Of a stretch of 64,000 nucleotides of DNA, positions 2,704 through 42,646 are shown piece by piece; positions within the stretch are counted from its first letter, which is position 1, and each line of letters opens with the position of its first letter. Location: assembly GCA_003050565.1 (NCBI GenBank), contig PEBW01000002.1, positions 248,001 through 312,000 on the forward strand. The letters run 5' to 3'. The position numbers and the translations under genes were made by a program. Under the pieces are notes generated by a model. The model worked only from the letters and a program-made list of their open reading frames with translations. It searched no databases and was not told where the DNA came from. The DNA is from Brockia lithotrophica (GTDB lineage Bacteria; Bacillota; Bacilli; Thermicanales; DSM-22653).

Positions 2704-4009
<1,306 letters not shown>

Positions 4010-37983: not shown

Positions 37984-39159
37984 CTACCTCCCCTCTGCGC
38001 GAGCGTACCGCCCACCGGGGAGTCTCCGGACGAGCCCCGCGAGCTCGAGGCGGACGAGGAGGGGGAGGAGCGTAGAGGGTTCCAGGGAGAGCTCGCGGAG
38101 GAGCTCCTCTGCCGTTCGAGGCGCCGCGCCGAGACGGGCGAGAACCGCCTGCTCTTCCGGTGTGAACGGACGGGGAGCCGAAGGCGACTCCGGCGCGGAA
38201 CCTGTACCCCCGTCCCGCGGGGACGAAGGCCGAAGCGCTCCTTCGGCCTGGAGGGAGGGTCGGAATTCTCCCGAAGAGGCGGACGAAAGACGTGCGAGGA
38301 CCTCGCGGGCCGAGAGAGCGGGGTGGGCACCCGCGGCGAGAAGGCGGTTGGGTCCCTCGCTTGCGGGCGAAAAGACGGGACCGGGAACGGCAAAGAGAGG
38401 ACGACCGTGCCTTTGCGCCCATTCCGCGGTAAGCATCGCTCCGCCGCGAGAACGGCTCTCCACGACGAGAACGGCGCGACTCACGCCGCTCAGGAGTCGG
38501 TTCCGCAGGGGAAAGAGGCCGCGCTCCGCCGCCGTCCCCGGGGGCATCTCGGAGAGGACGAGTCCTCCCCCTTCGAGGATTTCCTCGTACAGCCGCCGGT
38601 GCGCTTCCGGCGTCGGGACGTCTACCCCGGAGGCGAGGACGGCGATCGTTCGGCCTCCGGCCCGGAGGGCAGACCGGTGCGCCGCAGCATCGATGCCGAA
38701 GGCCATGCCGCTTACGACAGCGGCGCCTTCGGAGACGAAATCTTTGGCGAAACGTTCGGCGAGGAGGAGGCCGTAAGCCGTAGGCCGCCGTGTCCCTACC
38801 ACGGCGACCGCCGGAAGCCCGAACGCGGCGAGGTCGCCTCGTACGTAGAGGAGAAAGGGAGGGTCGGGTATTTCCCGAAGACCGCGGGGGTATTCCGGGT
38901 CGCCCCACCACAAGATGCGCACACCTCGAGGCATACGGGGGGTCTCCTTCCCGCCGCACATGCGCGCGAAACGCTCCCCTGCCGCCCGAAATACCTCCTC
39001 GGGGAGAACTCGTCCTGCGCGGAGGCGCTCCCACCCCTCGCGGGTGCAGAGGAGGCGAAAGGAGCCGGAAAGAATCTCGTAGACCCGCCAGAGGCGCCTC
39101 TGCCCTACGCCGCGCACGCCGTGCAAGACCGCGGCCGCGAGGAGATCCGCTTCCGTCAC
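37984..39159 (-). CDS. dprA: DNA processing protein DprA (Smf)
   Basis: DprA loads RecA on incoming single strands during natural transformation. The 391-residue protein has an N-terminal helix-hairpin-helix-like domain, the central Rossmann-like core (VAVVGTRRPTAYGLLLAERF, VVSGMAFGIDAAAHRSAL, PLRNRLLSGVSRAVLVVESR), and a C-terminal winged-helix domain (about 335-390, EEQAVLARLGAAPRTAEELL). The open frame begins earlier, but the GTG at 39159 has GGAGGG ahead. With comM nearby, it suggests at least a remnant of transformation ability. Confidence 0.95.
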   Translation of the reverse strand: MTEADLLAAAVLHGVRGVGQRRLWRVYEILSGSFRLLCTREGWERLRAGRVLPEEVFRAAGERFARMCGGKETPRMPRGVRILWWGDPEYPRGLREIPDPPFLLYVRGDLAAFGLPAVAVVGTRRPTAYGLLLAERFAKDFVSEGAAVVSGMAFGIDAAAHRSALRAGGRTIAVLASGVDVPTPEAHRRLYEEILEGGGLVLSEMPPGTAAERGLFPLRNRLLSGVSRAVLVVESRSRGGAMLTAEWAQRHGRPLFAVPGPVFSPASEGPNRLLAAGAHPALSAREVLARLSSASSGEFRPSLQAEGALRPSSPRDGGTGSAPESPSAPRPFTPEEQAVLARLGAAPRTAEELLRELSLEPSTLLPLLVRLELAGLVRRLPGGRYARAEGR

Positions 39160-39263
39160 CCGATTTCCCTCCGCCGGGTTCCCTTTTTCCTCTTTCCTCC
39201 GGAAAAACCGCGGGCCGGCCCACGGCCGGCCCCGTCTCTCCCCAGTCCTTTGCGAGAGCGCTT

Positions 39264-39488
39264 TCAAAAAACGCGCTCTTCGAGCTTTTTCTTTCCTTCC
39301 TTCTTTCCTTCCCGCTCGCGGCGGCGTTCGAGCATCGCCTCGAGCTCTTCCGCGCTCAGAATTCCCTTGCGGCCTGCAAAGCGGAAGTACCGCCTGCCCA
39401 CGAGCTCGCGAAATTCCTCGCCGATTACCTGCTTCTGCCAGGCAATCTGCGCATCTTCTTCGGGTACGCGCGTAAATGCGGGCCGCAT
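39264..39488 (-). CDS. Small hypothetical protein upstream of dprA
   Basis: I do not recognise this 74-residue product. The ATG at 39488 lies behind GGAGGTGGTAGCC, a good ribosome site. The sequence is charged, with an aromatic segment (QIAWQKQVIGEEFRELVGRR, then YFRFAGRKG) followed by a Lys/Glu-rich helical tail. There is no signal peptide or membrane span. It lies 104 bases before the dprA start and 109 bases after a Spo0E-like gene, all on the same strand. Confidence 0.6.
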   Translation of the reverse strand: MRPAFTRVPEEDAQIAWQKQVIGEEFRELVGRRYFRFAGRKGILSAEELEAMLERRREREGKKEGKKKLEERVF

Positions 39489-39597
39489 GGCTACCACCTC
39501 CACCCCAAAGCCTTGCCGCAAATGGCTCTCTCTATGCCGTATTCATTCTACCACAAATAGCGTAAAGAAATCCAGCACGTCGCAACTTCGGTACTTC

Positions 39598-39909
39598 CTA
39601 GAGACGGTTAAATTTTTCGTCGAGTAGGCGGCTCAGACGGACGATTTCCGGATCGGTGAGGGACCGCGCCGACTCCGCGCGTTTGAGGAGCTCGAAGCGC
39701 AAGCGGACGATCTCCAAGACGAGCTCCTCCAGTTCTTCGTCCTCGGGGTCCTCTCCGTCGGAACCGCCCCTCCGCCTCTCGTACCTTGTCTCCTCCCCCG
39801 GCACACGCGCCTCGCTGAGCACGTGCGCTCTCGGGAGGTTCACCGCCGTGAACATGAGGGGAGAAGAGTCGTTCCGGATGAAGTCTTCCTCCATGTCCCG
39901 CGCGTGCAT
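39598..39909 (-). CDS. Spo0E-like phosphatase family protein
   Basis: Spo0E-family proteins remove phosphate from Spo0A-P and delay sporulation. The C-terminal half has the family pattern: helix LVLEIVRLRFELLKRAESAR, then SLTDPEIVRLSRLLDEKFNR, close to the typical LTDPEVxxLSQxLDxxI with S-[QR]-x-LD. The N-terminal 50 residues are not part of the domain and may be wrongly included: the ATG at 39909 has only a closely spaced GAGGTGG, and other starts have none. A sigma-A promoter with a Spo0A-type box lies about 300 bases upstream. The family call is from pattern only. Confidence 0.65.
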   Translation of the reverse strand: MHARDMEEDFIRNDSSPLMFTAVNLPRAHVLSEARVPGEETRYERRRGGSDGEDPEDEELEELVLEIVRLRFELLKRAESARSLTDPEIVRLSRLLDEKFNRL

Positions 39910-40203
39910 TTCCACCTCGGCCACCCCCAAAGCAACCGCAGAAAGATGAGTAACCGTTTACGCATTCCCTTTCCCCATTCTTTCCCGCACCCTGGATTTC
40001 CGCACCGCAGAACGCGTGCTTCCCCACGTTCGCCTTATCCGACCGGGCCCCGTCCGAACTTCCGAGGTCAACTTTCCCTATCCATTGATTAGGAAAAGAG
40101 GCGACTGCTGGTTGGGCCGTGGCGCACGGCACGTCTCCGTATCTTCTTTGTCTTTGTTCCCTGAGGGGTCTTAGACAAATGATATGAGCCATCGGTAAGG
40201 TAC
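39910..40203 (-). other. Long leader / gene-free stretch upstream of the Spo0E-like gene
   Basis: Nothing convincing is encoded here on either strand; the open frames lack ribosome sites and protein-like composition. Together with the 40211-40374 segment it forms a gene-free region of about 460 bases that is less GC-rich than its surroundings. If the promoter at 40211-40239 drives the Spo0E-like gene, this would be its untranslated leader of nearly 300 bases. Confidence 0.5.
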
Positions 40204-40210
40204 GGAAACA

Positions 40211-40239
40211 AACCTAACGCAACTCGCATCCATTGTCAA
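40211..40239 (-). promoter_or_regulatory. Sigma-A promoter upstream of the Spo0E-like gene
   Basis: On the minus strand the pattern is TTGACA (40234-40239), a 17-base spacer and TAGGTT (40211-40216). The -35 box is perfect, the -10 box is poor, a shape often seen at activator-dependent promoters. Transcription would start near 40204. Confidence 0.65.
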
Positions 40240-40247
40240 GTAAAAGT

Positions 40248-40255
40248 TTGTCGAA
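40248..40255. promoter_or_regulatory. Candidate Spo0A box
   Basis: TTGTCGAA matches the 0A box core TGTCGAA exactly. It lies 9 bases upstream of the -35 hexamer of the promoter above, a usual place for Spo0A-P to act. A second site, GGTCGAA on the minus strand near 40316-40322, has one mismatch. A single 7-base match can occur by chance, so this is tentative. Confidence 0.4.
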
Positions 40256-40374
40256 CCTCGTTCGGCCTGCGCCGGAATACACTCCGAGAGACAAAAAATC
40301 TTCGCGCGCACAGTTTTTCGACCGCACCGTACAGTCACGGCGTGAGTTCTGCGCCACGTACGCGATGAACTCGC

Positions 40375-41919
40375 TCAGATCACCTCGCGGCGCAAGGCCG
40401 CCGCCTCGAGAAGGTGGGCTTCGCCTACGTCCTCCTTACCCTCAAGGTCGGCGATCGTGCGTGCGACCTTGAGGAGCTTGTGTACGGCACGGGCGGAGAG
40501 CCCCAGCCCCGCGAGGAGTTCGTGGAGAAAGGCGCGGAGGGCAGGTGTCAGGGGGACGACCTGGGCTACATCCCGGGGACCCAGAAATCCGTTGGCCGGC
40601 AAGGGGAGGTCGGGAAGTCGCCGGGCGGCGCGCGCCGCTGCTTCCCGGACGCGCTCGGCCATTTCCGCAGAAGTTTCCGTGCGTCGGCGATCGAGGATGT
40701 CCCGGTAGCGGGGCAGCGGAACCTCGAGGAGGATGTCGAAGCGGTCTTTGAGAGGGCCCGAAAGGCGGTTTCGGTAGCGCCCGACTTCTTGCGAGGTACA
40801 GCGGCATGCGTGCGCTTCGTCCTCGAAACCGAAATACCCGCACGGACAGGGGTTCGTCGCCGCGGCGAGGAGGAAACGCGCGGGGTACCGCACGCGCGCC
40901 CGCGCCCGCGCCAAGACCACTTCCCCGGCCTCGAGGGGTTGGCGCAAGAGGTCGAGGAGGCGCGGCGGGAACTCGAGCAGTTCGTCGAGGAAGAGGACGC
41001 CCCGGTGGGCGAGCGTCACCTCGCCGGGTACGGGTACGGATCCGCCTCCCACGAGACCTTGAGGGGAAATCGTGTGGTGCGGTGCGCGAAAGGGGCGCCG
41101 CCGAAGAAGTCCCGAACCGTTGAGAAGCCCGGCGACGTCGTAAATCGTGGACACCTCGAGGGACTCTTCCGGGGTAAGGGGAGGAAGGATGGTTCTCAGG
41201 CGCTCGAGGAGCATCGTCTTTCCCGAACCGGGAGGTCCCACGAGAAGGACGTTGTGAAATCCGGCCGCGGCGATGACGAGGGCGCGCTTCACGTCTTCGT
41301 GGCCGTAGACGTCCGCGTAGTCCCCGGGTTCTGCTTCGGCGTCCTCCGCCTCACCCGGGCTCCCCGTGTAGCTCACGAGACCCCGTGGGCGTTCGAGGAA
41401 AGCTGCGACTTCCGCGAGGTTTCGGGCGAGAAAGGCCGTGATCCCGAGCAGGCGCGCCTCTCGTTCGTTTCCCTCGGGAAGGACAAACGCTTCGACGCCT
41501 GCGCGCCGCGCCGCCTGGGCAAAGGCGAGGATTCCGCGCACGGGTCGAAGCGTTCCGTCGAGCGAAAGTTCCCCCAAAAAGGCGATGTCGTCCAGGCGGG
41601 CCAGTGGCCGCACGCCGCCCGACGCGACGAGGATTCCTACGGCCAAAGGGAGGTCCCAGTGAGTGCCGGTCTTCGGAAGATCCGCGGGGGCGAGGTTTGC
41701 CGTGATCCGCGCCAGGGGGAAGGGAAACCCGGAATTTCCCAATGCGGCGCGCACGCGCTCGCGCGCCTCCCGCGTCGCGTTCCCGGGCAGGCCGACGAGG
41801 TCGAAGGCGGGAAGCCCGCGCGCGAGGGACACCTCGACGTCGACCGGATGGGCCTCGATCCCGACGACGGCCGCGCTGCGAATGCGGGCAAACCCCACCG
41901 TCCGTCCCCCACCCGACAC
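40375..41919 (-). CDS. comM: YifB/ComM family Mg chelatase-like ATPase
   Basis: ComM is a hexameric AAA+ helicase that promotes branch migration during transformation in Gram-negatives; the Firmicute homologue is less studied. The 514 residues have an N-terminal Lon-like domain (PAFDLVGLPGNATREARERV), Walker A GPPGSGKT (228-235), Walker B RGVLFLDELLEFPP, the AAATNPCPCGYFG motif and a C-terminal chelatase domain. The start is GTG behind GGGAGGGG. It closes the rplS-to-comM unit. Confidence 0.94.
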   Translation of the reverse strand: MSGGGRTVGFARIRSAAVVGIEAHPVDVEVSLARGLPAFDLVGLPGNATREARERVRAALGNSGFPFPLARITANLAPADLPKTGTHWDLPLAVGILVASGGVRPLARLDDIAFLGELSLDGTLRPVRGILAFAQAARRAGVEAFVLPEGNEREARLLGITAFLARNLAEVAAFLERPRGLVSYTGSPGEAEDAEAEPGDYADVYGHEDVKRALVIAAAGFHNVLLVGPPGSGKTMLLERLRTILPPLTPEESLEVSTIYDVAGLLNGSGLLRRRPFRAPHHTISPQGLVGGGSVPVPGEVTLAHRGVLFLDELLEFPPRLLDLLRQPLEAGEVVLARARARVRYPARFLLAAATNPCPCGYFGFEDEAHACRCTSQEVGRYRNRLSGPLKDRFDILLEVPLPRYRDILDRRRTETSAEMAERVREAAARAARRLPDLPLPANGFLGPRDVAQVVPLTPALRAFLHELLAGLGLSARAVHKLLKVARTIADLEGKEDVGEAHLLEAAALRREVI

Positions 41920-41944
41920 GCCTCACCCCTCCCGCGGCGGTTTG

Positions 41945-42646
41945 CTACTCTTCTTCGCCGCCCGCCGGGGAAATTCCTCCCCCGAGCACCGCGGCGCGTA
42001 CGGAAGGTTCTCCTCCTGCCCCGGCGTGTGTCTCTTCCTTGCGGGCGAGCGGGGGTACGCGGTCGTATGGGAGGTCTTCGGAAATCCACTTCGTGTACAC
42101 GGTGTACGGATCGCGGGGCGGGGGAGCGGGGATTTCCCGCGGATAGCCGATATCGATAAAGGCCACGATTTCCGCCCGATCGCTCAGCCCGAAAAAGCGG
42201 GCGACGTACGGGTGGTAGGCGCGCTTGCCCGTCTTCCACTTCGCCCCTAAGCCGAGGGCGTGGGCGGCGAGGAGCATGTTCTGCACCGCCGCGCTCACCG
42301 CGGAACGCTCCTCCTGGGGGAGCACGCCGGGCTCGTCCTTGGGTTCTACGGCGACGACGATCACGACGGGTGCTTTAAACGGCTTTTCCTCCTCGCGCCG
42401 AAGGATTTCCTGGTTCTCGGGCGTATCCGGATCGGCCATCTCCCGGCGCCGGAGTTCGCGGAACAACCGCCCCAGGGGCCTCCTTCCCTCCCCCGTCAGG
42501 ACGAAAAACCGCCACGGTTGCGTGAGGCCGTGGTTGGGCGCCCACGTCGCCGCTTCGAGGATCTTGGCGATCTTTTCCTCTTCCACCGGATCGGGTTTGA
42601 ACTTGCGCACGCTCCGCCGCGTGCGAATGGCTTCGAAGACGTCCAC
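41945..42646 (-). CDS. Nitroreductase family protein
   Basis: FMN-dependent NAD(P)H oxidoreductase of the nitroreductase fold. The 233 residues begin with the flavin-binding pattern AIRTRRSVRKFKPDPV and include APNHGLTQPWRFFVLTG, AVQNMLLAAHALGLGAKWKT and FIDIGYP. A tail of about 35 residues rich in Gly and Glu follows the fold. The substrate is unknown. The start is GTG. Its place between yraN and comM in a translation/repair operon is unusual and gives no clear hint of function. Confidence 0.88.
   Translation of the reverse strand: MDVFEAIRTRRSVRKFKPDPVEEEKIAKILEAATWAPNHGLTQPWRFFVLTGEGRRPLGRLFRELRRREMADPDTPENQEILRREEEKPFKAPVVIVVAVEPKDEPGVLPQEERSAVSAAVQNMLLAAHALGLGAKWKTGKRAYHPYVARFFGLSDRAEIVAFIDIGYPREIPAPPPRDPYTVYTKWISEDLPYDRVPPLARKEETHAGAGGEPSVRAAVLGGGISPAGGEEE

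Follow-up and report, generated by a model that had tools for sequence, protein, structure and literature searches.

A Spo0E-family gene of Brockia lithotrophica with a conserved 0A box upstream of its putative promoter

The window described here, a 64-kb stretch of the Brockia lithotrophica genome (the window is ~67% G+C; the genome is 1.69 Mb, in 12 contigs), carries a gene that is best read as encoding a Spo0E-family phosphatase, transcribed from its own sigma-A promoter and controlled directly by Spo0A-P through one strong 0A box. We put the probability of this reading at about 0.6. According to it, Spo0A-P would bind the 0A box directly upstream of the -35 element of spo0E, where it would most likely activate the gene, and the product would in turn dephosphorylate Spo0A-P; the two would together form a direct loop of negative feedback. 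The regulator, in other words, may directly control the gene for its own probable off-switch. Judged from the DNA, direct control of spo0E by Spo0A is likely in this genus, with activation the probable outcome; what we infer is that Spo0A binds, that it activates rather than represses, that the product acts on Spo0A-P as a phosphatase, and how the loop then behaves.

The gene lies on the minus strand at 39598..39915 and specifies 105 amino acids from a GTG at 39915. The initial annotation began it at the ATG at 39909, and the corresponding frame (39598-39909, minus strand) is open, with a 103-aa product whose C-terminal end is ...SLTDPEIVRLSRLLDEKFNRL. In the congener (G001) this ATG is a GTG; the GTG at 39915, two codons farther 5', is common to both species and is preceded by GGGGGTG, and is our preferred candidate for the start. 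That the C-terminal half of the product fits the Spo0E pattern, as first claimed, is borne out by the HMM search proposed at the time: the Pfam profile of the family, PF09388 (Spo0E), matches residues 65-99 of the 103-aa form at 25.7 bits, above the curated cut-off of 23 bits. In a genome-wide profile search the same product scores 27 bits, and it is the sole PF09388 match over the cut-off in the source genome (97% complete). The S and D of the SxxxD signature, S95 and D99 in the 105-aa numbering, are invariant in five of five aligned sequences; according to the part of PMC11115286 consulted, where the signature is named, the aspartate is critical for function in B. subtilis. Given the five-row alignment, AlphaFold2 predicts a confident helical hairpin (helices 57-82 and 89-104; pLDDT, averaged by block, is 88-96 from residue 61 onward), preceded by an N-terminal extension of ~55 residues with pLDDT <50 that is probably disordered. 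The sequence profile of the product matches 2c0s (E 0.12) and 2bzb (E 0.32), both solved structures of Spo0E family members, only weakly. A fold search gave no match at E <=0.001, with neither structure among its 39 matches, and NCBIfam gave no match up to E 1. The ortholog in the congener is 69% identical. The gene would appear, then, to encode a protein-aspartate phosphatase of the Spo0E family, presumably active on Spo0A-P.

Upstream of the gene, the hexamers TTGACA (-35, 40234..40239) and TAGGTT (-10, 40211..40216) stand 17 bp apart on the minus strand (40239-40211), as the initial annotation had noted, and form the only match to TTGACA-N16-18-TANNNT in the 64 kb, where 0.05 would be expected. 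A stricter sigma-70 scan of 39100-42000 found no promoter; it requires four of six letters in each hexamer and the -10 TAGGTT has three. An exact 0A core stands 9 bp upstream of the -35, again in agreement with the initial annotation: the box TTGTCGAA occupies 40248..40255 on the plus strand (TTCGACAA on the coding strand) and is conserved in the congener. The portion of PMC3485338 consulted describes TGTCGAA as the 0A core and names G2, C4 and G5 as the contacted positions. The 8-mer TTGTCGAA is about as common in the window as chance predicts (two occurrences against 1.82 expected), so it is conservation that carries the case for the box; the 9-mer TTTGTCGAA is found once, both strands counted. 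A second near-match farther up, also part of the original proposal, does exist as the one-mismatch GGTCGAA at 40317-40323, but it has no counterpart in the congener and is not supported as a site. Another one-mismatch core, TGTCTAA at 40171-40177, is not conserved there either. Finally, TTTTACT (40239..40245, minus strand), 10 bp downstream of the main box, may be a weak second 0A half-site; it has four of the seven letters of TTCGACA, and sits near where spoIIGA has its box.

A leader of ~290 nt, mostly poorly conserved, separates the promoter from spo0E. It includes an 18-bp run, GCGGTTGCTTTGGGGGTG (39922..39939, minus strand; 18/18 identical in the congener), in which GGGGGTG is the presumed ribosome-binding site. 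Preceding this site is a 19-bp block, AATGCGTAAACGGTTACTC (39948..39966, minus strand; 19/19 identical), with a near-palindrome, GTAAACGGTTAC, inside it at 39950-39961; the exact 12-mer is found once in the window. In the congener a 14-codon ORF begins with the block and overlaps one possible start of spo0E; the block is a candidate for the beginning of such an ORF, or for an operator. An Rfam search of 39200-40450 returned a single match, far below its gathering score.

Sixty-one genomes were compared, of which G001 is the one congener. Its intergenic region aligns with that of the source genome at 47% identity over 516 columns (43% outside the two longest runs), and the longest identical run, TTCGACAAACTTTTACTTGACA, is 22 bp and spans exactly the 0A box through the -35, the putative half-site TTTTACT included. 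The -10 is TAGGTT in the source genome and TATGTT in the congener. When the alignment columns were shuffled 5000 times, the longest run averaged 7.7 and reached a maximum of 19, never 22. Searched in the 61 genomes with up to three mismatches, the block is found with none only at the spo0E genes of these two species; a single three-mismatch match, in G024, is at chance level, since the backward pattern used as control gives five matches across the same 61 genomes. Three further genomes (G002, G003 and G004) belong to the same family as the source genome. Hydrogenibacillus sp. Bu13 (G002) has no perfect core in the 900 bp preceding the matched Spo0E domain, and the only one seen before the domain in Candidatus Carbobacillus altaicus AL32 (G003) lies ~540 bp upstream of it, inside a divergent gene. 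The arrangement of box and promoter at spo0E is carried by two species only; the alignment of relatives suggested by the initial annotation shows the box in the one congener available (22/22 bp identical) but not in two other genera of the family, where it is absent near spo0E.

Spo0A itself is present throughout: a Spo0A_C domain is encoded in six of six genomes searched, with one Spo0A gene each in the source genome and the congener. Over 113-114 residues the DNA-binding domain of the former aligns with two Spo0A chains of solved structure, 1fc3 and 1lq1, and its recognition region, RVERAIRHAIEVAW, is unchanged in them. Boxes occur at the promoters of other sporulation genes, too. Before spoIIGA, TTCGACA stands exactly 28 bp upstream of TATACT in all four genomes examined (G000, the source genome, to G003), with the same core and orientation as the spo0E box. 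Before spoIIE, a one-mismatch box stands 28 bp upstream of TATACT in three of three (G000, G001 and G002); G003 has only a one-mismatch core, at another position. A perfect core precedes spoIIAA in G002; none does in G000 or G001. At spo0E, in both congeners, the box precedes the -10 by 39 bp, compared with 28 bp for spoIIGA and spoIIE, a difference that counts against the proposed reading; at about -51 to -45 the box would lie 11 bp, one helical turn, farther up than that of spoIIGA. Its spoIIGA-like orientation, the displacement by one helical turn and the weak -10 are our reasons for reading it as an activator site. Each congener also has two AbrB-family genes, and Spo0A may therefore act on spo0E indirectly too, by way of AbrB; the stretch scanned before these genes showed no perfect core.

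The genes on the minus strand run in the order comM, the spo0E-like ORF, an 85-aa ORF, dprA and topA. comM and spo0E are codirectional and ~460 bp apart in the source genome; comM is followed by a stem and then a T-run in the congener, and by a less clear stem in the source species. The pairing of spo0E with the 85-aa ORF downstream (39264..39521, minus strand) is kept in G000, G001, G002 and G003, although the surroundings vary: spo0E begins directly after comM in Bu13, comM is oppositely oriented in G003, and the neighbours of the 85-aa ORF differ in both. Among the stretches read, dprA comes next after the pair in the two congeners only. The neighbourhood is therefore family-wide, and the proximity of dprA looks genus-specific. 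The proposed loop had been placed next to dprA; dprA is indeed nearby, but the 85-aa ORF intervenes, and a special tie to dprA is not supported. A stem of nine G+C pairs with a T-rich tail (39232-39212) lies before the presumed start of dprA, which we think is the GTG at ~39159; the scan that found it counted three such stems where shuffles give 3.7, which is no excess.

The 85-aa ORF itself occurs in G000, G001, G002, G003 and H. schlegelii, always with an invariant AWQKQVIGEEF, and an extended -10 of the form TGTGGTA(T/G)AAT lies upstream of it in each of the five (TGTGGTAGAAT, at ~39545-39555, in the window). Its product has no Pfam match over the cut-off and no NCBIfam match. In H. schlegelii MA 48 (L049, ~3590-3970), comM is followed by the 85-aa ORF, with no spo0E between them, and G004, presumably H. 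schlegelii, has no Spo0E above the PF09388 cut-off genome-wide.

Several other explanations deserve weighing. Spo0A-P might act at the same site with the opposite sign, repressing spo0E and so shedding its own phosphatase, which would amount to positive feedback. Spo0A acts both as an activator and as a repressor, and the consensus -35 of spo0E could work unaided; repressing 0A boxes, however, usually overlap the promoter or stand downstream of it, and the box here precedes the -35, in the spoIIGA orientation, at a promoter with a weak -10. We regard repression as unlikely. We would say the same, and no more, of the suggestion that the conserved block is simply an ordinary sigma-A promoter, or the site of some other regulator, that resembles an 0A box by chance. 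Six of its 22 bp are the -35 itself, and TTGTCGAA is no more frequent in the window than chance allows, but the conservation reaches 16 bp upstream of the -35, where it matches the nine letters of TTTGTCGAA, and spoIIGA, in all four genomes examined, has the same core at a constant upstream position.

More doubtful again is that spo0E is transcribed mainly from comM, the 0A-box promoter being a minor input, a possibility compatible with the other readings. It would suit the shared direction of the two genes and their immediate succession in Bu13, and sits less well with the ~460-bp gap in the source genome and with the stem and T-run after comM, evident in the congener and less clear in the source species. 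We give the least credence to the idea that the protein, though Spo0E-like in fold, acts on a different response regulator or partner, with no Spo0A loop: a Pfam score barely above the cut-off and the ~55-residue N-terminal extension, predicted with low confidence, leave some room for it, yet this is the sole match over the cut-off in a genome that encodes Spo0A, and SxxxD is kept. Direct control of spo0E by Spo0A-P, most likely as an activator, remains the reading that we prefer.

Whether 0A boxes precede spo0E as a rule among the Bacilli is another matter, and here we make no general claim. Perfect TGTCGAA cores, on either strand and within 400 bp upstream, were counted before 128 Spo0E genes in two sets, chosen among the best-scoring matches listed rather than at random (one locus, L119, ends early at a contig end). 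The core was found before 11 of 70 genes in the first set (3.2 expected from shuffles) and before 10 of 58 in the second (2.5 expected), which, drawn partly from the same genomes, is not a fully independent repeat. With near-duplicates removed the count was 20 of 100 (4.5 expected), and among the 630 possible orders of these letters none of the others was as frequent. The core is absent before rpsD, the gene for ribosomal protein S4, which served as one control (0/40; 0/29 deduplicated, 1.3 expected; Fisher p 0.004 against spo0E). The excess at spo0E is matched, however, by a second control, cold-shock genes (15/70; 11/50 deduplicated; p 0.69), a count that includes one misframed locus, L220. 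Because one control equals spo0E and the other does not, the rule is not established. In 9 of the 11 cold-shock loci (L206, L213, L215, L217, L228, L229, L231, L236 and L240) the core falls between -111 and -136, and in seven of these nine it is followed by TTCGTCGA. Since they cluster in this way, the cold-shock cores may be real sites, and Spo0A control of cold-shock genes in several Bacilli is possible.

The region upstream of spo0A adds a further twist. Perfect cores, on either strand of the 420 bp before the gene, number two in each of G002, G003 and G004 and one in G005; neither the source genome (L026) nor the congener (L024) has any in that interval, and the two share no core of the NGNCGAA type there, nor one in the other-strand form sought. 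A sigma-H-like AGGAWW...GAAT precedes spo0A in G000, G001, G002 and G004; of the four, only G002 and G004 have a 0A core overlapping the GAAT. Autoregulation of spo0A may possibly have been lost in the two congeners, degenerate boxes being still conceivable. Together with the box at spo0E, the missing spo0A boxes suggest that the genus may have swapped positive for negative feedback. The full form of this idea is rather speculative: the circuit would have been rewired, spo0A losing the direct positive autoregulation that the perfect boxes of four relatives mark, and the lone spo0E-type phosphatase gene acquiring a 0A box and with it a direct loop of negative sign, so that Spo0A-P would limit itself and not latch. 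Work on whether the sporulation switch latches (positive feedback) or is restrained (negative feedback) has centred on Bacillus subtilis; if the idea is true, a small genome whose one Spo0E gene bears a 0A box directly, and whose spo0A has no perfect box, would be a natural rewired version.

In the open-access literature searched, we recognised no paper that reports Spo0A binding directly to the promoter of a spo0E-family gene. Members of the Spo0E family PF09388 (B. subtilis Spo0E, YisI and YnzD, and C. difficile Spo0E; PMC11115286, in part) have SxxxD in common with the product described here, and a two-helix domain resembling the hairpin predicted for it; the product differs in its N-terminal extension of ~55 residues, predicted with low confidence. 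The closest parallels to the box are the spoIIG and spoIIE promoters of the same genomes, which have the core TTCGACA, with one mismatch in spoIIE, in the orientation seen at spo0E; there it lies 28 bp before the -10, whereas at spo0E it lies 39 bp before, and a consensus -35 follows. In Paenibacillus polymyxa, judging from the portion of PMC7425212 consulted, Alo13-spo0E likewise places a spo0E-like gene under a dedicated regulator of its own, by peptide-receptor control rather than by Spo0A. The nearest circuit is that of B. subtilis itself, where, as set out in parts of PMC4214203 and PMC3269414, three genes form the loop, with abrB inhibited by Spo0A-P and spo0E in turn by AbrB. There, as we propose here, Spo0A-P raises Spo0E and Spo0E dephosphorylates Spo0A-P. 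The B. subtilis loop is indirect, by way of AbrB, whereas here the 0A box is on the spo0E promoter itself and the loop would take a single step. Since B. subtilis runs the same loop indirectly, the Brockia arrangement is a variant in the wiring of a circuit already known and no new kind of system.
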